NCBI RefSeq assembly: GCF_019924045.1
Contig: NZ_JAHXBN010000008.1
Location: 1 to 64,000 of the forward strand
Source of the DNA: Dyadobacter fermentans
Lineage (GTDB): Bacteria > Bacteroidota > Bacteroidia > Cytophagales > Spirosomataceae
Direction of reading: 5' to 3'
Length of the DNA: 64,000 bases
The notes beneath the pieces are model-generated. The model saw nothing but the letters and a program-made list of their open reading frames with translations. It made no database searches and had not been told where the DNA came from. Shown here in pieces: positions 4,271 to 11,294 of the stretch (positions are counted from its first letter, which is position 1; each line of letters opens with the position of its first letter). The position numbers were made by a program, and so were the translations under genes.

Positions 4271-5563
4271 ATGTCTGAATTCAAAATTCCCGGAATGCAG
4301 CTTGTTCACGACAATGTTGTACTAAGAAAATACCTTACGAAAAATCCGCGCCATGGTCTGGTATTGGCATTGATCCTCATCTACCTGGCGCTGGAAAGTT
4401 ATTACCTGTTTTTCCGTTTCCACGGCCACATTCAGGACCTTACGCTTTATCACGGTATTGCATTGAAAATGTTGGACGGGCAAATGCCGTTTCGCGATTT
4501 CCGCATCGAATACCCCGTTTTTGTACTGATACCCATTCTACTGCCGGGTATTTTGAGCCAGTTAGCGGGAGGCTCGTTCGAAAGTTATGTATACTGGTTT
4601 GTAGCACAAAATCTGGGACTGGCAGTGGGTATTGCATGGATTATTGCCCAATCGGATACGACTGGCAAGGCACTGCCGCGCTTTTTTGTCGCGACGTTGT
4701 TCTTTCTTCCGCTTTTCCTTTTTCGCTTTGACCCTTTCCCGGCAATACTTACCGCGCTTGCCGTTACGAACGTTTCATGCAGACCGTTCATTTCGGGTAT
4801 GTCGCTGATGGCGTCTGTTGCTGCGAAATTGTACAGCATTGTGCTGATGCCGGTCTTTGGGCTATATTGTCTTTTTAACAGGGATATTACGAAGTGGATT
4901 TGGCTGATAGCGGGGTGCGGTTGCTTCTGCGGAGCGATCGCGGGGTGCATTGCGTGGGCCGGAATGGACGCTGCTTTGGACTTCATGCATTACCATCTGT
5001 TGCGCGGCATTCAAATTGAAAGCCTGGCCGGGGGAATTTTATTACTTTTAGAACAAACCGGGCTGGTAGAGCTGGATGTTGCTCACAGCTTTGGCGCTAT
5101 GCACCTCGTAACGCCGCTCTCAGGCCCTGTTTTGCAATGCATTAATATCATGACGCCACTTTCCTTTGTCCTGATGGCGAGTTTCCTTGCCTGGGCATTT
5201 TATAAAACTGCGTCGACGTCGGGAAGTATTACATTCCGGCAATTGAATGCGGCTGCGGCGGCGCAGATACTTTTGTTCATCCTTCTCAACAAAGTGCTTT
5301 CTCCGCAATACCTGATCTGGCTGCTGCCGTTAGTCCCGTTTTGCAGGTTTAGAGCATCGCTGATTTTTGCAGTTACACTAATGCTCACAATACTCATATT
5401 CCCTGGTCACTATTATAGTTTGATTTCAAAACAACTGTTGATGGTCGTTATTCTGAACATACGGAATGCCCTGCTGATCTGGCTTTTCATTGAGCTTGTT
5501 TCGGAAATCGCTTCCGCGTACGTTACGCAAAGCGTCAGCGGGCGGCCGACTCCATCCGCGTAA
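4271..5563 (+). CDS. Polytopic membrane protein, GT87/DUF2029-like
   Basis: A 430-residue integral membrane protein with about 10 hydrophobic segments starting at residue 30. An acidic loop after the first segment (GHIQDLTLYHG, then FRDFRIEYPVFVLIPIL) resembles the first periplasmic loop of GT-C glycosyltransferases of the GT87/DUF2029 type, where an Asp and a Tyr-Pro pair help bind polyprenyl-phosphate sugar. By family knowledge it would transfer a sugar such as mannose on the outer face of the inner membrane. The acceptor is unknown. Its last 29 bases overlap the 3' end of the convergent polymerase gene, so both stop codons lie inside the other gene. Confidence 0.7.
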   Translation: MSEFKIPGMQLVHDNVVLRKYLTKNPRHGLVLALILIYLALESYYLFFRFHGHIQDLTLYHGIALKMLDGQMPFRDFRIEYPVFVLIPILLPGILSQLAGGSFESYVYWFVAQNLGLAVGIAWIIAQSDTTGKALPRFFVATLFFLPLFLFRFDPFPAILTALAVTNVSCRPFISGMSLMASVAAKLYSIVLMPVFGLYCLFNRDITKWIWLIAGCGCFCGAIAGCIAWAGMDAALDFMHYHLLRGIQIESLAGGILLLLEQTGLVELDVAHSFGAMHLVTPLSGPVLQCINIMTPLSFVLMASFLAWAFYKTASTSGSITFRQLNAAAAAQILLFILLNKVLSPQYLIWLLPLVPFCRFRASLIFAVTLMLTILIFPGHYYSLISKQLLMVVILNIRNALLIWLFIELVSEIASAYVTQSVSGRPTPSA

Positions 5564-8504
5564 TTTCCGCCACCTCCACGGTGAGGAAGCCGAATTCTTC
5601 CGTCACGACGCCGCGGATCTTGTAAACGCCTTTTACCGAACCATTCACTTTGGCGGCCGCCGTGGGGAAATGGACGGTGTCGATAAATTGCCCCTCGTAA
5701 TCCAGAAACGTACCAAACTGCATCGACTCGCCGCGATTTGTCCGGGTGTTTTTCAGGGCCACCAAGTAGCCGTATTGCACCACTTCCTGGTTGACATAAT
5801 TGTGCAGATCGCGCGACATTACACTCTTGGGCAACGGGTTTTTCAGCAAATTGAACGGGCTGCAAAGAGGAAAGCCGAGCAATTCGATCTGGTCATAGGC
5901 GTCATCGAGAATCGACGAATGGAACTCCGGCAGATTGAAATCCTTGATTTCGGAATGGAACAACTGCTTTTGCGGTACTTTGACGGGCGTGGTACTCAGC
6001 CGGAAATGGGCCTTCCAAAGCAGTGTTTTCTTGCCGATACCTGTAAACCGAAACGCGTCGATCCGGATCAGGATGGTCAATTGTTCTATCGAAATCGGAA
6101 CCCGGTCGAGGAAATCGTTGAGTGATGTGAAGGGGCCGTCTTGCCTGCGGGCACCGAGGATTCTTTCGATCGTTCTTTCTTCCAGTGCATTCAGAAACTG
6201 CATACCGAGGTAAATTTCATGCCCTTCGATGGTCGCCTGGGCTTCGCTGTGGTTCACGCATGGCGCATGTACCAGCGCGCCGAGCATGCGCGCCTCATGT
6301 ATGTACAGCTCGGGCGCGTAAAAGCCGCCGCCGTTGTTGAGCACGGCCACCATGAATTCCAGCGGGAAATAGGCTTTCAGAAACAATGTCTGATAGCTCT
6401 CGACGGCATAGGAAGCGGAATGCCCTTTTGCAAAGGCGAACCCGGCGAAGCTGGCGATCTGGTTCCAGATTTCCATGGTCATCTCTTCGTCGTAACCCTT
6501 GCTCCGGCAGTTTTTGAAATACTTCTTTTTAACGCGCTCAAACTCTTCACGCCCGCGAAACTTGCCGCTCATGCCGCGCCGGATCACATCGGCCTCACCG
6601 AGTGTTAATCCGGCAAAATAATGTGCGACCTTGATCACATCTTCCTGATACACCATAATGCCATAAGTCTCCTCCATCAGCTCCAAAAGACGCGGGTGCG
6701 CCTCGTTCCGCTTTTCGGGGTGGCGATGGCGGAGAATGTACTCACGCATCATCCCGCTTTTCGCGACGCCAGGCCGGATAATGGAGCTGGCCGCAACAAG
6801 TCCGAGATAGTTGTCGACTTCCAGCTTTTTGAGCAGCATCCGCATCGCCGGAGATTCTACATAAAAGCAGCCGATACACTGCGCCTGCCTGATAAGATCG
6901 TTGATTTTTGGGTCGGTTTTGAATTTCCGGACGTCGTTAATGTCAAAATCTGCGGTATCGGGGCGGTTATATCGGATGATTTCAAGCGTTTCCTTAATCT
7001 TAGCGAGCCCGCGCTGGCCCAGGATATCATATTTATTCAGCCCGACATCCTCCGCAATCACCATATCAAATTGCGTGGTGGGAAAGCCTTTCGGCGGCAC
7101 GTCGGTAGCGGTAAAGTAGTGCATAGGCCGTTCCGAAATGAGGATACCGCCCGCGTGAATGCTCAAATGGTTCGGCTGGTTGTTGGTTTGGAAATAATCA
7201 GCATACCTGATCACCAGCCCGGAAAGCTGATCGAGCTTTTTCGGGTCATATTTACCATTGCTCAATGCATCGATTTCATAGGCAGGTAAACCAAATACTT
7301 TTCCCAACTCGCGCACGGCCGAGCTGTGCTGAAAAGTACTGTACGTGGCTAGTAGCGCCGCCTGGCCATTTTTGCCGTAAGTCTCAAAAATATAGCGCGT
7401 CACATCTTCGCGGTCGCGCCACGAGAAATCGATGTCGAAATCGGGCGGGTTTTTGCGGTGAAGGTTGATAAACCGCTCGAAATATAAATCCAGCTCGATG
7501 GGGTCGACATTCGTAATGTTGAGCAAATAAGCGATGATACTGTTCGCCCCGCTGCCCCGGCCGACGTAGTAGTAACCCTTCCGGCGGGCATAATTCACGA
7601 TGTCGTGATTGACCAAGAAAAAAGGCACGAAATTCTGCTGCCGGATCATATCCAGTTCCTTGGCAATGCGGTCGAAAATTTCATCGGTAATATTGTCGCC
7701 GTAACGATAACCAAGCGCCTGATAGCTCATCGACCTCAGCCGTTTGAAATCTTCCTGCTCGTTTTGACTGAAAACTTTTAGATTCTGGTGTTCGCGTTCA
7801 TTCCCAAAGCTGAACTGGATGTTGCATTCATCCATCAGTTTACGCGTGTTCTCGAGGATCGTGCGGAAGTCCTTTTGCTTAAAATGGTATTCCAAAACCT
7901 TGGCCTGTACGATCTGTTCGTTCTCTTTGCCCGTCTCGCCGACTGTGAGCTTGCTGAGCAGCGTGTTGCCGTCGATAGCCCGTAGCAACCGATGCGCATT
8001 AAAATCCTTTTTGTTCCGGAAAGTTACAGGCTGCTGGATGATCAGCCTGTCTATGAACCGGTGTAGCGGTGAGTAATGCAGCTTGTCCAGGTCCTGCATC
8101 GAAATGCCGATGTATTCGTTGGGCCGGAACTGCTCGCGGCGCTCTTTATTCAGTTTTTCAAAAGGATAAATAATTGCCACATGCTCCATTTCAGGTGCGC
8201 GGTCGGGGAAAGGTGCGTCCGTCAGTTTCTGAGCCGAGAGATAGGCATTCAAAGTCTGAAAGCCGACGTTGTTCTTCGCCAATGCCACAAATTGCTGCGT
8301 CACACCGTTCCGGAAATCGATCCCGACAATGGGTTTAATATCGAACCTGGGCGCCATACGAATGAAGTTCAGGCAGCCCGAGGTGTTATTGATATCCGTC
8401 AGCGCGGCGCAGTCGTACCCATTCTCCCGGCAAAGCGCAAGAAGTTCATCCTCAGGAATCGTCCCGAAGCGAAGACTGAAATAAGAGTGGCAGTTGAGTA
8501 ACAT
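5535..8504 (-). CDS. dnaE2: Error-prone DNA polymerase III alpha subunit (DnaE2/ImuC-like)
   Basis: A C-family replicative-type polymerase of 989 residues, clearly shorter than a replicative DnaE (about 1160) and closer to damage-inducible DnaE2. The order is an N-terminal PHP domain (about 1-200), the palm with catalytic aspartates in PPDFDIDF near residue 354, fingers, a helix-hairpin-helix region, and a C-terminal OB-fold ending near residue 985. No tau-binding tail follows. The PHP metal site looks degraded: the usual HxH near the N terminus reads N-C-H, and the TDHG motif reads TDIN, so proofreading or phosphoesterase activity is unlikely. It faces the same way as dinB, with higBA between them. 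The expected role is translesion synthesis with the Y-family polymerase. It overlaps the convergent GT87-like gene by 29 bases. Confidence 0.85.
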   Translation of the reverse strand: MLLNCHSYFSLRFGTIPEDELLALCRENGYDCAALTDINNTSGCLNFIRMAPRFDIKPIVGIDFRNGVTQQFVALAKNNVGFQTLNAYLSAQKLTDAPFPDRAPEMEHVAIIYPFEKLNKERREQFRPNEYIGISMQDLDKLHYSPLHRFIDRLIIQQPVTFRNKKDFNAHRLLRAIDGNTLLSKLTVGETGKENEQIVQAKVLEYHFKQKDFRTILENTRKLMDECNIQFSFGNEREHQNLKVFSQNEQEDFKRLRSMSYQALGYRYGDNITDEIFDRIAKELDMIRQQNFVPFFLVNHDIVNYARRKGYYYVGRGSGANSIIAYLLNITNVDPIELDLYFERFINLHRKNPPDFDIDFSWRDREDVTRYIFETYGKNGQAALLATYSTFQHSSAVRELGKVFGLPAYEIDALSNGKYDPKKLDQLSGLVIRYADYFQTNNQPNHLSIHAGGILISERPMHYFTATDVPPKGFPTTQFDMVIAEDVGLNKYDILGQRGLAKIKETLEIIRYNRPDTADFDINDVRKFKTDPKINDLIRQAQCIGCFYVESPAMRMLLKKLEVDNYLGLVAASSIIRPGVAKSGMMREYILRHRHPEKRNEAHPRLLELMEETYGIMVYQEDVIKVAHYFAGLTLGEADVIRRGMSGKFRGREEFERVKKKYFKNCRSKGYDEEMTMEIWNQIASFAGFAFAKGHSASYAVESYQTLFLKAYFPLEFMVAVLNNGGGFYAPELYIHEARMLGALVHAPCVNHSEAQATIEGHEIYLGMQFLNALEERTIERILGARRQDGPFTSLNDFLDRVPISIEQLTILIRIDAFRFTGIGKKTLLWKAHFRLSTTPVKVPQKQLFHSEIKDFNLPEFHSSILDDAYDQIELLGFPLCSPFNLLKNPLPKSVMSRDLHNYVNQEVVQYGYLVALKNTRTNRGESMQFGTFLDYEGQFIDTVHFPTAAAKVNGSVKGVYKIRGVVTEEFGFLTVEVAEITRMESAAR

Positions 8505-8509
8505 GAGTA

Positions 8510-8540
8510 TTTGAAAAACGGAACTGAGTACTTACTTTTG
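8510..8540 (+). promoter_or_regulatory. Promoter of higBA
   Basis: TTTG (8510-8513), 19 bases, then TACTTTTG (8533-8540) exactly fits the Bacteroidota housekeeping promoter (-33 TTTG, -7 TAnnTTTG). The transcript would start about 25 bases before higB. The -33 element lies within 10 bases of the divergent polymerase start codon. Confidence 0.75.
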
Positions 8541-8553
8541 GCGTTACTAACGC
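8541..8553. promoter_or_regulatory. Probable HigA operator
   Basis: GCGTTACTAACGC is a perfect 6-bp inverted repeat around one base, starting at the base after the -7 element. That position suits a HigA autorepression site and could also affect the divergent polymerase gene. Binding is inferred. Confidence 0.6.
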
Positions 8554-8569
8554 GAGCCGGCACCCCGAT

Positions 8570-8851
8570 ATGATCGTCAGCTTTTCTTCGAAGGAAACCG
8601 AAAAAATATGGCTCGGCGAGCGGGTCGGAAAGTTGCCGTTGGAAATCCAGCAAGTAGGGAGACGGAAGCTTAGAATGCTTCATAACTCGCAAAATCTTGC
8701 GGATTTACGTATCCCGCCATCGAATAGGCTGGAAAAGCTCTCAGGAAACCTGAAAGAGTTTTACAGCATACGTATCAACGACCAATGGCGGATTGTATTC
8801 AAATGGTTAGACGGTAATGCTGCGGAGGTTAGAATTGTCGATTATCATTAA
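8570..8851 (+). CDS. higB: HigB-like toxin, RelE superfamily mRNA interferase
   Basis: A 93-residue basic protein with the HigB/RelE fold signatures: MIVSF at the start, LRIPPSNRLEKLSGNLKEFYSIRINDQWRIVFKW in the core (split here only for recognition: RLEKL, GNLKEFYSIRI, WRIVFKW), and a C-terminal VRIVDYH. The terminal Tyr-His and the Arg residues of the core are typical of these ribosome-dependent RNases, which cut mRNA in the A site. Toxin precedes antitoxin, the standard higBA order. The six-base gap to higA implies co-translation. Nothing suggests inactivation. It lies on the opposite strand between two polymerase genes. Confidence 0.88.
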   Translation: MIVSFSSKETEKIWLGERVGKLPLEIQQVGRRKLRMLHNSQNLADLRIPPSNRLEKLSGNLKEFYSIRINDQWRIVFKWLDGNAAEVRIVDYH

Positions 8852-8857
8852 ATTTCG

Positions 8858-9157
8858 ATGGAAACACTAAATAATATTCATCCAGGAGAAGTCCTGATGG
8901 AGGAGTTCCTTGAACCAATGGGCATTTCCGCTTATCGATTGGCAAAGGAGACCGGTATTCCCCAGACGCGGATCAGCGAGATCATCAAAGGGCGGAGACG
9001 TGTTACCGCCGATACCGCATTGCGTTTTAGCAAATACTTCGGCACGACGCCCAAGTTCTGGCTGGGCTTGCAGGACGATTATGATATTGAAGAAGGACAA
9101 CATTTGATTTCCGAGGAATTGAATGAGATAAAAGCCTTGCAGCCCAATGCAGCCTGA
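8858..9157 (+). CDS. higA: HigA-like antitoxin, XRE-type DNA-binding protein
   Basis: A 99-residue protein with a helix-turn-helix from about residue 22 to 75 (ISAYRLAKETGIPQTRISEI, then RVTADTALRFSKYFGTTPKFWLGLQ), the hallmark of the HigA/VapI antitoxin family. It should neutralise HigB and repress its own promoter, probably through the GCGTTACTAACGC site. The N-terminal IHPGEVLMEEFLEP motif is also family-typical. The stop codon lies six bases from the stop of the convergent dinB gene, with no terminator visible between them. Confidence 0.9.
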   Translation: METLNNIHPGEVLMEEFLEPMGISAYRLAKETGIPQTRISEIIKGRRRVTADTALRFSKYFGTTPKFWLGLQDDYDIEEGQHLISEELNEIKALQPNAA

Positions 9158-9163
9158 TTATCG

Positions 9164-10393
9164 CTACGCATTCCTATGGGCCGGAATAATGGGCGGCTCG
9201 CCGTTGAATGGGTTTCCCATCGCGCCGATATCCGAGATCCCCATTGTGCTGGCCCAGGTGAGGATTTGGTCGCCTTCTTTATTATAGGCGTATTTGGTTT
9301 TAATGTAATCCATAGCCTGATAGAGGTTGAGCCGTTCTTCGGTATCGTCGAAAAGGTTGATCTGGTAATTCCCCGTCACAAGGTCGCTGAAACTCACCCC
9401 TACCAATCTCACCATCATCCTGCGGTTATAAAGCTGGTCGAAAAGCCGTTCGATATGCGGGATCAGCACATGGTCCGCGGAAGTGTAGGCGATTTTCAAC
9501 TGCCTGGAAAATGTATTGAAATCGGAATAACGGATTTTGACAGAAATACAGGAAGTGAGCTTTTCGCCCGTTCGCAGCTGAAAAGCCAGTGTTTCCACCA
9601 TCGCACGTACCATTTCGCGCATTTTTTTCACGTCGCCGGTGTCCTTCCCGAAAGTTCGTTCGCTGGAAATCGATTTGCGCTCGTGGAACGGAACAATAGG
9701 AGAGTTGTCGAGCCCGTTGGCGCGGTTCCAGAGCGAGATTCCATTTTTGCCTAAAACCTGACCCATAATTTCCATAGGCATTTCCTGGATTGTTTTCACA
9801 TACCGGATCCCGAGGTTGTGAAGTGTCTGGTTCATTTTTTCGCCTACCATCGGAATTTTCTGCACTTCCATCGGTGCCAAAAACGGTTTTTCCTGCCCCG
9901 CATCCACTTTGAGCTGATTGTTCGGCTTGGCTTCCCCGGTCGCAACCTTTGATACCAGTTTATTGGTAGCCAGCCCAAACGAAATAGGCAGGCCGGTTTC
10001 GCGGATAATGCGCTGCCTGAGCTCGCTGGCCATTCCATAGCAACTGTGGTATTTGTCCATACCCGACAGATCTGCATAAAACTCGTCGATACTGGCCTTC
10101 TCAAACACGGGGACGCTCTGGCTGATGATCTCGCTCACTTCCTTCGATTGTTTGGAATATGCTTCCCCGTTTCCTCGGATAACGGTCGCTTCGGGGCAGA
10201 GCATGCGGGCCATTTTCATAGGCATACCGGAATGCACCCCAAATTGCCTGGTTTCGTAGCTGCAAGCCGCTACAACACCGCGGTCGCCCGTCCCACCCAC
10301 GAGTATCGGTTTACGTTCAAGCCGGCTGTCCTGCTTGCGCTCTACGGATACGAAAAAGGTATCCAGGTCAAAATGTAATATCGCACGGTCCAC
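9164..10393 (-). CDS. dinB: Y-family DNA polymerase (Pol IV/DinB-like)
   Basis: A 409-residue translesion polymerase. The N-terminal AILHFDLDTFFVSVE carries the first catalytic Asp; SIDEFYADLSG near residue 102 carries the second acidic pair (the usual form is SIDEAYLD). The little-finger domain spans about 235-345. QINLF near residue 358 is a beta-clamp-binding motif. GTG (10391-10393) is the best start because it gives the conserved M-D-R-A-I-L-H-F opening. It is divergent from the LexA-like gene, so a shared operator region probably controls both. A -7-like TAATTTTG lies on this strand at 10412-10419. The function is bypass synthesis at damaged DNA, likely with the downstream DnaE2-like polymerase. 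Confidence 0.92.
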   Translation of the reverse strand: MDRAILHFDLDTFFVSVERKQDSRLERKPILVGGTGDRGVVAACSYETRQFGVHSGMPMKMARMLCPEATVIRGNGEAYSKQSKEVSEIISQSVPVFEKASIDEFYADLSGMDKYHSCYGMASELRQRIIRETGLPISFGLATNKLVSKVATGEAKPNNQLKVDAGQEKPFLAPMEVQKIPMVGEKMNQTLHNLGIRYVKTIQEMPMEIMGQVLGKNGISLWNRANGLDNSPIVPFHERKSISSERTFGKDTGDVKKMREMVRAMVETLAFQLRTGEKLTSCISVKIRYSDFNTFSRQLKIAYTSADHVLIPHIERLFDQLYNRRMMVRLVGVSFSDLVTGNYQINLFDDTEERLNLYQAMDYIKTKYAYNKEGDQILTWASTMGISDIGAMGNPFNGEPPIIPAHRNA

Positions 10394-10411
10394 TACTATT
10401 TGGATTTTTTA

Positions 10412-10490
10412 CAAAATTATGGATTTATTCCAAATATATGGATCATATCCATTTATTGAAAGGAAATATTCCAAAATATTTGTATGTTTG
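10412..10490. promoter_or_regulatory. Divergent promoter and triple operator between dinB and the S24 repressor
   Basis: Three copies of GGA-N5-TCC occur in AT-rich DNA: GGATTTATTCC (10421-10431), GGATCATATCC (10440-10450, within the 15-bp dyad ATGGATCATATCCAT) and GGAAATATTCC (10462-10472, within AAATATT-CCAA-AATATTT). Their starts are 19 and 22 bases apart, about two helical turns. A -7 element TATGTTTG (10483-10490) serves the repressor gene, and TAATTTTG on the minus strand (10412-10419) could serve dinB. The sites sit between or over these promoter elements, as expected for a repressor acting both ways. No well-spaced -33 element is seen. Confidence 0.7.
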
Positions 10491-10526
10491 AAGGGTCAAG
10501 ACATTGTCAACCGGTAATCACCACGC

Positions 10527-11294
10527 ATGCTTATGGCCATTGATGAAGAATTCAGGCGTTTCAAGCAAATCAGAGAGGAGCTCAATCTGACCCAGGCGGC
10601 ATTTGCGGAGGAATTGGGGATCAGCGCTACCACTGCCGACATCGAGCGGGGGCGTACGCGCATACCCGGGCAAGTAGTAAAGGAACTGCTTAAAAAGTAC
10701 CACATCAACCCGCTCTGGCTGTTCGGAGACAGTTTGCAAAAGTATCTTTATACGGACAGAGTATTCGTCAATCCGAAAGTAGTGACGGTCGATCAGGCGG
10801 GTAACGACAATATTGTGCTCGTCAGCGCGAAAGCGGCGGCCGGCTATCCCAACAATATCGGCGATGCGCAATGGTTTGAGGCGTTGCCAGCCTTCACAAT
10901 ACCGCTACCGGAATACCGTAATGCGACATTCAGAGGATTTCAGGTCGATGGCGACAGTATGACGCCGGCGTTGCAGTCAGGCGAATGGATTTGGGCCCGC
11001 GCGGTGGATGACTGGGAGTCGCTGAGTGATAAACATATGTATGTCATTGTCACGATCGACAGCGTGCTGGTCAAAAAGATCCGGAAGGAAAAAGATTCCC
11101 TTTTTGTGAACCTGGTATCGCTCAATCCCGACTATGCACCGATCCGTGTTGATCGTAACGAAATTCGTGAAATATGGCAGGTAAACAGTAAGTTGTCTTT
11201 CAATCTGGAAGAGGACAAAACGGAAATAAGTTTGCAAGGCCTGTACCAGGAAATGCGGGAGTTGCGGCAGGAGGTGAAGAAGCTGGTTAAATAG
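10527..11294 (+). CDS. LexA/CI-like S24 self-cleaving repressor with XRE DNA-binding domain
   Basis: A 255-residue regulator. Residues 10-66 form an XRE helix-turn-helix (RFKQIREELN, LTQAAFAEELGISATT). Residues 95-230 are an S24 peptidase domain: a cleavage-type Ala105-Gly106 in AKAAAGYPNN, the catalytic serine in DGDSM (Ser144), and the general-base lysine at 183 or 184 in VLVKKI. The C-terminal 35 residues are charged and may form a coiled coil. By family, RecA filaments trigger self-cleavage and so derepression. The divergent dinB gene and the intergenic dyads argue that it controls this mutagenesis locus and itself. A second ATG six bases downstream could also be the start. Confidence 0.88.
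   Translation: MLMAIDEEFRRFKQIREELNLTQAAFAEELGISATTADIERGRTRIPGQVVKELLKKYHINPLWLFGDSLQKYLYTDRVFVNPKVVTVDQAGNDNIVLVSAKAAAGYPNNIGDAQWFEALPAFTIPLPEYRNATFRGFQVDGDSMTPALQSGEWIWARAVDDWESLSDKHMYVIVTIDSVLVKKIRKEKDSLFVNLVSLNPDYAPIRVDRNEIREIWQVNSKLSFNLEEDKTEISLQGLYQEMRELRQEVKKLVK

Follow-up and report, generated by a model that had tools for sequence, protein, structure and literature searches.

The closest described relatives of the operon treated here appear in Timinskas and Venclovas (2019, PMC6511836), where Bacteroidetes with an apparently active PolY2 together with DnaE2 and without ImuA/ImuB-C are described; the DnaE2 of Bacteroidetes is noted elsewhere as unusually short (PMC3919608). The regulatory side was treated by Sanchez-Osuna and colleagues (2021, PMC8565304). 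According to that work, S24 'non-canonical LexA' regulators of Bacteroidetes bind either GGA-N5-TCC or CTAA-N5-TTAG, dinB-polymerase III alpha operons are controlled by such regulators through GGA-N5-TCC, and this motif is linked to induction by mitomycin C elsewhere in the phylum. The GGA group was found mainly in Flavobacteriaceae, and the regulators of Cytophagaceae were left unassigned. SOS-linked toxin-antitoxin (TA) systems are known as well: in Escherichia coli, yafNO stands behind dinB, whose promoter mediates its induction by mitomycin C (PMC2814082), and the higBA genes of Caulobacter are repressed by LexA and HigA (PMC13384398).

The locus described here occupies positions 5535..11294 of the window, by which we mean the whole stretch of 64,000 nucleotides of the soil bacterium Dyadobacter fermentans that was analysed, inside an assembly of 8.0 Mb (genome G000). 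Its features are collected in Table 1. An earlier note on this DNA had named the genes and their strands, with the S24 gene divergent from dinB and higBA between the two polymerase genes, and had given spacings of 6 bases at the dinB stop and 65 bases at the polymerase start. Checked against the open reading frames, all of this is exact to the base: the convergent ends of higA and dinB are separated by 9158-9163 and the starts of dnaE and higB by 8505-8569.

Table 1. Coordinates of genes and sequence elements at the dinB-dnaE locus, numbered as in the window
Feature	Position	Strand	Basis
Short DnaE-type (C-family) polymerase, 989 aa	5535..8504	-	PF07733 + finger, HHH_6, PHP
TTTG, -33-like element of higBA, 5 bases from dnaE start codon	8510..8513	+	pattern
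TACTTTTG, -7-like element of higBA, 19 bases after TTTG	8533..8540	+	pattern
GCGTTACTAACGC palindrome, probable HigA operator	8541..8553	.	core conservation, recurrence elsewhere
higB toxin (RelE-like), 93 aa, C-terminal DYH	8570..8851	+	PF05015; PDB 6f8s_B match
higA antitoxin, 99 aa, antisense to dinB-dnaE	8858..9157	+	TIGR02607
dinB, Y-family polymerase, 409 aa, GTG start	9164..10393	-	IMS + IMS_C
GGA-N5-TCC operator-like site, closest to dinB	10421..10431	.	pattern; genus conservation
GGA-N5-TCC operator-like site, middle	10440..10450	.	pattern; genus conservation
GGA-N5-TCC operator-like site, closest to repressor	10462..10472	.	pattern; genus conservation
S24/HTH repressor, 255 aa, divergent from dinB	10527..11294	+	PF01381 + PF00717

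The first named relative among the matches listed is Dyadobacter jiangsuensis (97% in DnaE). The DnaE-type polymerase matches PF07733 with 204.5 bits, has no Pfam match past residue 827 of its 989 residues, and stays under both NCBIfam cut-offs (455.6 against 939 bits for the error-prone polymerase, 500.3 against 1002 bits for DnaE). The earlier label 'DnaE2-like' therefore rests on context and short length, and the curated error-prone family does not back it. All 48 Dyadobacter genomes keep D357, D359 and D493 of DnaE together with Q845, L848 and F849, as well as D9, D11, D103 and E104 of DinB; the three aspartates of DnaE and the four DinB positions are presumably the catalytic residues. Clamp-type motifs are QINLF in DinB and QKQLF in DnaE, and after QINLF the C-terminus of DinB has, judged by eye, a stretch resembling the RecA-N-terminus motif. 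The operon thus consists of an active-site-complete Y-family gene adjoining a DnaE-type gene, without an ImuB-C gene. The idea of a Bacteroidota mutagenesis-type operon lacking imuA beside a LexA-like S24 gene is borne out, but it is not new, since this operon type is already known in Bacteroidetes from two papers (PMC6511836, PMC8565304).

Two further Y-family-dnaE pairs exist in the same genome, one of them as part of a cassette with the order S24-[245 aa]-Y-family-dnaE. The 245 aa protein gives no match in Pfam and resembles imuA in position only. Because of these imu-like cassettes, a role of the operon as the organism's replacement of imuA-imuB-dnaE2 was ruled out. Nine second DnaE-type genes (L124-L132), 43-47% identical, occur in eight Dyadobacter genomes; an S24 match adjoins seven of the nine, and none of the nine fetched stretches has a DinB match. 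A DnaE-type fragment with an internal stop lies in the genome of the window itself (L005, G000:C113:16062-16325).

Synteny in the relatives confirms that the genes are neighbours. The order repressor-dinB-dnaE was found in all 48 Dyadobacter genomes and is, given this constancy, more than chance. A tblastn match of the repressor runs without stops in each of the 48. The Ala-Gly site and Ser/Lys pair which had been called intact are Ala105-Gly106, Ser144 and Lys183, kept in all 45 aligned repressors of the genus (the length filter dropped 3 of the 48 copies). With HTH_3 (PF01381), Peptidase_S24, Ala-Gly and the Ser-Lys dyad, the protein resembles non-canonical LexA. Furthermore, the gap between repressor and dinB contains exactly three GGA-N5-TCC sites in 48 out of 48 genomes, compared with a mean of 0.005 per region after mononucleotide shuffling. 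It is this genus-wide count which carries the case for an operator; the excess of the pattern over the window (24 against 14.7 expected, one of 100 shuffles being as high) was rejected as stand-alone evidence. From the three-site promoter and the published work on S24 regulators, the operon is very probably under SOS control.

Outside the genus the two motifs are distributed differently. GGA-N5-TCC occurs in one of 44 scored loci from other genera of the family (two sites) and CTAA-N5-TTAG in two; in the order sample CTAA-N5-TTAG is present in 11 of 13 scored loci and GGA-N5-TCC in none of the 13. Aquimarina litoralis (L030) has two GGA sites at a distance of 19 bases, as is the case for the two sites closest to dinB in the window. 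Among the first six palindromes shown per locus, TACACAAAATGTA or a close form recurs upstream of dinB in L188, L190-L192 and L199, and GTATTCNNAATAC in most of L207, L209, L210, L212-L216 and L218-L220. Palindromes of these two types are perhaps diverged SOS operators.

In the genome of the window, the palindrome TGGAWWWWWTCCA was counted 12 times, compared with 3 times for a reversed-pattern control. Eleven of its places are outside the operon; profile scans of six ORFs at five of them identified a GDSL lipase, ribosomal proteins S8 and L6, a bacilliredoxin and dnaN, whose site falls within the ORF before it, while one protein had no match; dnaN excepted, no clear SOS gene is among these six. 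Close to recA no such site was found: the stretch around it has a single GGA-N5-TCC, at a distance of 1,272 bases upstream of the gene. These searches gave little sign of a wider regulon in this genome, a point against the scheme proposed below.

The module between the polymerase genes has all parts of a HigBA system. HigB scores 76.3 bits against PF05015 (cut-off 27) and matches PDB 6f8s_B in sequence with E 1.8e-20, 4mct being also similar in sequence; HigA belongs to TIGR02607 antidote_HigA (109.5 bits, cut-off 47.7). The C-terminal DYH, which we take to be catalytic, is present in all 13 complete HigB copies of the genus, with one extra residue in two. Seven of the 13 complete copies are preceded by TTTG-N(17-21)-TAnnTTT and the remaining six show no match at equal strictness; TTTG and TAnnTTTG are read as promoter elements after the Bacteroidota consensus. 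The 11-base core of GCGTTACTAACGC is found in 11 of the 13. Inspection by eye revealed that, in other genera, higB genes at unrelated sites are preceded by a near-identical unit of TTTG-N19-TACTTTTG plus GCGTTACTAACGC, so that this unit belongs to the higBA module. As an element of dnaE the GCGTTACTAACGC palindrome could thus be ruled out, since it travels with higBA elsewhere; it is a probable HigA operator.

Pairs among the 13 genomes with complete higBA, at dS under 1.5, gave a median dN/dS of 0.033 for HigA (11 pairs) and 0.041 for HigB (12 pairs), next to 0.045 for the repressor (6 pairs) and 0.023 for both DnaE (5 pairs) and DinB (8 pairs). HigA and HigB are under purifying selection, which addiction explains; a useful function would explain it equally. 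As far as the sequence tells, higBA is probably a working toxin-antitoxin pair. In plasmid records the module has two weak matches, each with less than 80% coverage.

The trio of repressor, dinB and dnaE is constant in the genus, whereas the junction between the polymerase genes exists in several states. Complete higBA is present in 13 of the 48 genomes (G000, G004, G007, G011, G016, G022, G027, G029, G031, G035, G040, G043, G045). Seven have an intact higA and no complete higB (G018, G021, G030, G033, G034, G036, G046), nine have traces only, as called by eye and simple patterns (G009, G012, G013, G017, G024, G025, G032, G037, G038), and in 19 none was seen. The gap between dinB and dnaE measures 15-46 bases in 14 of these 19 (15 in D. 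beijingensis, L010); in the others it is 235 bases (G042 and G008), 95 (G014) and, in the basal genomes, 69 (G047) and 59 (G015). G014 was scored as having none, and its leader is perhaps a diverged higBA remnant. These 19 junctions free of any trace, 14 of them tight, give good support to the first of two alternatives in the earlier note, that higBA inserted into a dinB-dnaE operon. Several gene-less junctions retain either the last ~20 bases of the dnaE leader, for instance in G044, or the higBA promoter region (for instance G009). In G032, whose junction is trace-only, a distant HigB-like match (33%) lies ~370 bases past the 3' end of dnaE (G032:C2:5432276-5432455).

An intact antitoxin without a complete toxin is found in the seven genomes named above, which represent at least five separate cases on the host tree, and the converse in none of the 48. 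Decay is therefore one-way and toxin first, with higA outliving higB. One might suppose that the TA guards the mutagenesis operon against loss by penalizing any deletion of the locus, which would suit both the purifying selection on HigBA and the presence of the operon throughout the genus. However, the 35 genomes that lack a complete pair have kept the operon just as well, and we regard such protection as very improbable.

With regard to origin, the tree of junction copies (13 two-gene and 7 higA-only copies) places all 20 on one side of a branch, opposite nine copies from the family (support 99/97) and likewise opposite 31 copies from family and order (support 98/94). HigB copies elsewhere reach 84% identity, yet fall outside this clade. 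A search of the genus with HigB gave 13 full-length matches at 73-100%, all of them at the dinB-dnaE junction, which is also where G037, G018 and G017 have their broken remnants; the other matches listed do not exceed 54%. The two basal genomes, G047 and G015, are without higBA. A single entry at the base of the clade formed by the other 46 genomes implies 22 losses of complete higBA and 13 losses of every trace of it. We infer such a single old entry, before these 46 genomes diverged, followed by repeated loss which re-tightened the operon.

Equal-weight undirected parsimony needs 10 changes for complete higBA instead of the 22 losses under a single gain, so that recombinational spread among relatives has to be considered; several forks of the host tree are unsupported. 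The TA-bearing junction would then behave as an allele, spreading by homologous exchange across dinB and dnaE in addition to being lost. Presence and absence indeed differ among species 95-97% alike in DnaE, and HigB distances correlate only weakly with host distances (396 of 5000 permutations as high). Against this, HigA distances track those of the hosts (none of 5000 permutations as high), several subclades of HigBA coincide with subclades of the hosts, and the remnants show deletions. Spread by exchange thus appears quite improbable to us, and vertical inheritance from one entry with many losses is the reading we prefer.

The search was extended to other genera of the family (60 of 75 matches fetched, 47 with dinB upstream on the same strand) and to other families of the order (40 of 69 matches fetched, 15 with dinB upstream). 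In the family, 33 of the 47 have dinB within 50 bases of dnaE. Using HigA, HigB and the PemK/MazF-type pair in tblastn, and viewing the rest by eye, we found a TA in none of the 47 family junctions and in none of the 15 order-level ones; these negatives cover the named queries, with ORFs partly profile-scanned, and other TA families could escape. Within the queries used, a TA at the dinB-dnaE junction is confined to Dyadobacter in this sample. The literature search, in the parts of the papers that it covered, brought up no report of a TA in a dinB-dnaE junction. Against that literature, the TA island inside the operon and its antisense orientation appear to be the new part, the kind of operon being published already. 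Six family loci (L178, L193, L194, L198-L200) have an ORF of 126-148 residues between dinB and dnaE on the operon strand, whose start in L193 gives a borderline YopX match (22.6 bits, cut-off 22.4). Judged by eye, repeat units of ~40 bases fill the 735-base gap of L205 (G141, 4700-5500), which contains no ORF of at least 45 residues.

Dyadobacter itself holds a second TA family at this place. In G013 (L107) and G038 (L113), the site of higBA is occupied, in the same orientation, by a PemK/MazF-family toxin (55.3 bits to PF02452) and an antitoxin of 75 residues, which scores 26.2 bits for DUF2281, just below the cut-off of 26.5. The dnaE side keeps the TTTG-N19-TACTTTTA of the old higBA promoter and the palindrome is gone. 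Hence higBA seems to have been replaced by another TA module in two relatives, and its old promoter, to go by these elements, seems to have outlived its repressor. Between dinB and the complete higBA of G040 (L115) lies a PemK/MazF-type pair with the toxin cut short, and in G030 (L119) the antitoxin of such a pair is left alone beside the lone higA; these remnants indicate that the PemK/MazF-type antitoxin, too, outlives its toxin. When the genus was searched with this toxin, matches of 100 and 92% came only from the G013 and G038 junctions, followed by the G040 remnant at 69% and others at 56% or less.

How dnaE is transcribed behind an opposing module can be approached from the signals present. 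A TAnnTTTG in dnaE sense is found in none of the 13 complete junctions; as chance provides only ~0.16 per junction by estimate, this is weak evidence. GGA-N5-TCC occurs within the junction in 4 of the 13, three times at the same place in higA, and no such site of dnaE's own is common to all 13. A sigma-70-type match on the dnaE strand lies in the 3' part of dinB (9309-9281, 10/12), one of two found where 3.1 are expected. No terminator-like site was seen on the minus strand between 8300 and 10700. Since dnaE has no shared GGA site or TAnnTTTG of its own, its leader is taken by the higBA promoter and no terminator-like site lies ahead, we infer that its expression comes from read-through transcription across higBA in antisense direction.

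Taken together, we consider it reasonably probable that the locus is an operon of known type which higBA entered once, which is read through, and which carries the module as a self-maintaining passenger. In this scheme higBA would have entered facing the operon, ~25 bases upstream of dnaE (a place estimated by eye from the leaders), and would have brought its own promoter and HigA operator, both now situated in the dnaE leader. On damage, the S24 repressor would be inactivated and its hold on the three-site dinB promoter released, and transcripts crossing higBA in antisense would supply dnaE. What keeps the module would mainly be that it works as a TA whose antitoxin must not be lost before the toxin; after failure of the toxin, the remainder would decay and the operon close up again. 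We take higBA to be a passenger held by its own addiction because it is often lost while the operon stays.

A functional link, the second alternative of the earlier note, is conceivable as well. Antisense read-through under SOS conditions might lower higBA expression, so that labile HigA falls first and the freed HigB slows translation during error-prone synthesis, which would make the locus a damage-operated arrest switch. The convergent dinB and higA ends only 6 bases apart, the higBA promoter within the dnaE leader, the lack of a terminator-like site in dinB sense, the second TA family at the same place and orientation, and the SOS-linked TAs of E. coli and Caulobacter cited above would all fit. 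Yet the complete pair is missing in 35 of 48 genomes, all of which keep both polymerase genes, complete higBA may have been lost up to 22 times, and the TA queries had no match in the junctions of other genera and families. This frequent loss argues that a link between damage and arrest is not essential, and we hold such a switch to be rather unlikely. A bolder form, in which antisense TAs dock repeatedly at the junction (first higBA, later the PemK/MazF-type pair behind the old higBA promoter) and SOS read-through turns whichever is present into a damage-triggered, self-resetting growth brake, we likewise judge unlikely; if true, mutagenesis and arrest would be coupled through transcriptional interference and not through a LexA box of the TA's own. 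The passenger reading is the one that we retain.

Under that reading also, a single genus offers a natural series of complete pair, broken toxin, lone antitoxin, remnant and clean junction. The series shows the order in which such TA modules decay and lets one ask whether an antisense TA inside a presumed SOS operon alters mutagenesis or survival.

Compared with known systems, the repressor resembles the non-canonical LexA proteins (PMC8565304) in its HTH_3 and S24 domains, the Ala-Gly and Ser/Lys residues and the GGA-N5-TCC between regulator and dinB. It differs in its host: the published GGA group is mainly from Flavobacteriaceae, and three such sites in each of 48 Dyadobacter genomes extend this operator to a part of the phylum whose regulators were unassigned in 2021. 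With the putative PolY2 + DnaE2 mutasome, as in Cellulophaga algicola (PMC6511836), the operon shares an apparently active Y-family gene followed by a DnaE-type gene and the lack of an ImuB-C gene; the Dyadobacter polymerase is a candidate DnaE2 by context and short length. Unlike that system, some Dyadobacter carry a TA on the opposite strand between the polymerases, and imu-type Y-family-dnaE cassettes are present besides in the genome of the window. The ImuA-ImuB-DnaE2 cassette (PMC6511836) is similar in having a Y-family protein adjoining an extra DnaE, often under LexA; it differs in that the Dyadobacter operon is without an imuA-like or ImuB-C gene and that ImuB is catalytically dead, whereas the Y-family protein here keeps its catalytic residues in 48 of 48 genomes. 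Among type II HigBA systems (PDB 6f8s and 4mct, by sequence), the toxin-first order, the HigB-like DYH end and the HigA-family antitoxin are usual, and the Dyadobacter copy is unusual in its place only. The dinB-yafNO locus of E. coli (PMC2814082) likewise has an antitoxin-autoregulated TA of the RelE superfamily beside dinB. There, however, yafNO is read along with dinB, while higBA of Dyadobacter faces dinB and has a promoter-like site of its own; if it did act as a switch, this antisense layout would be a different route to the same end as in yafNO and the higBA of Caulobacter.
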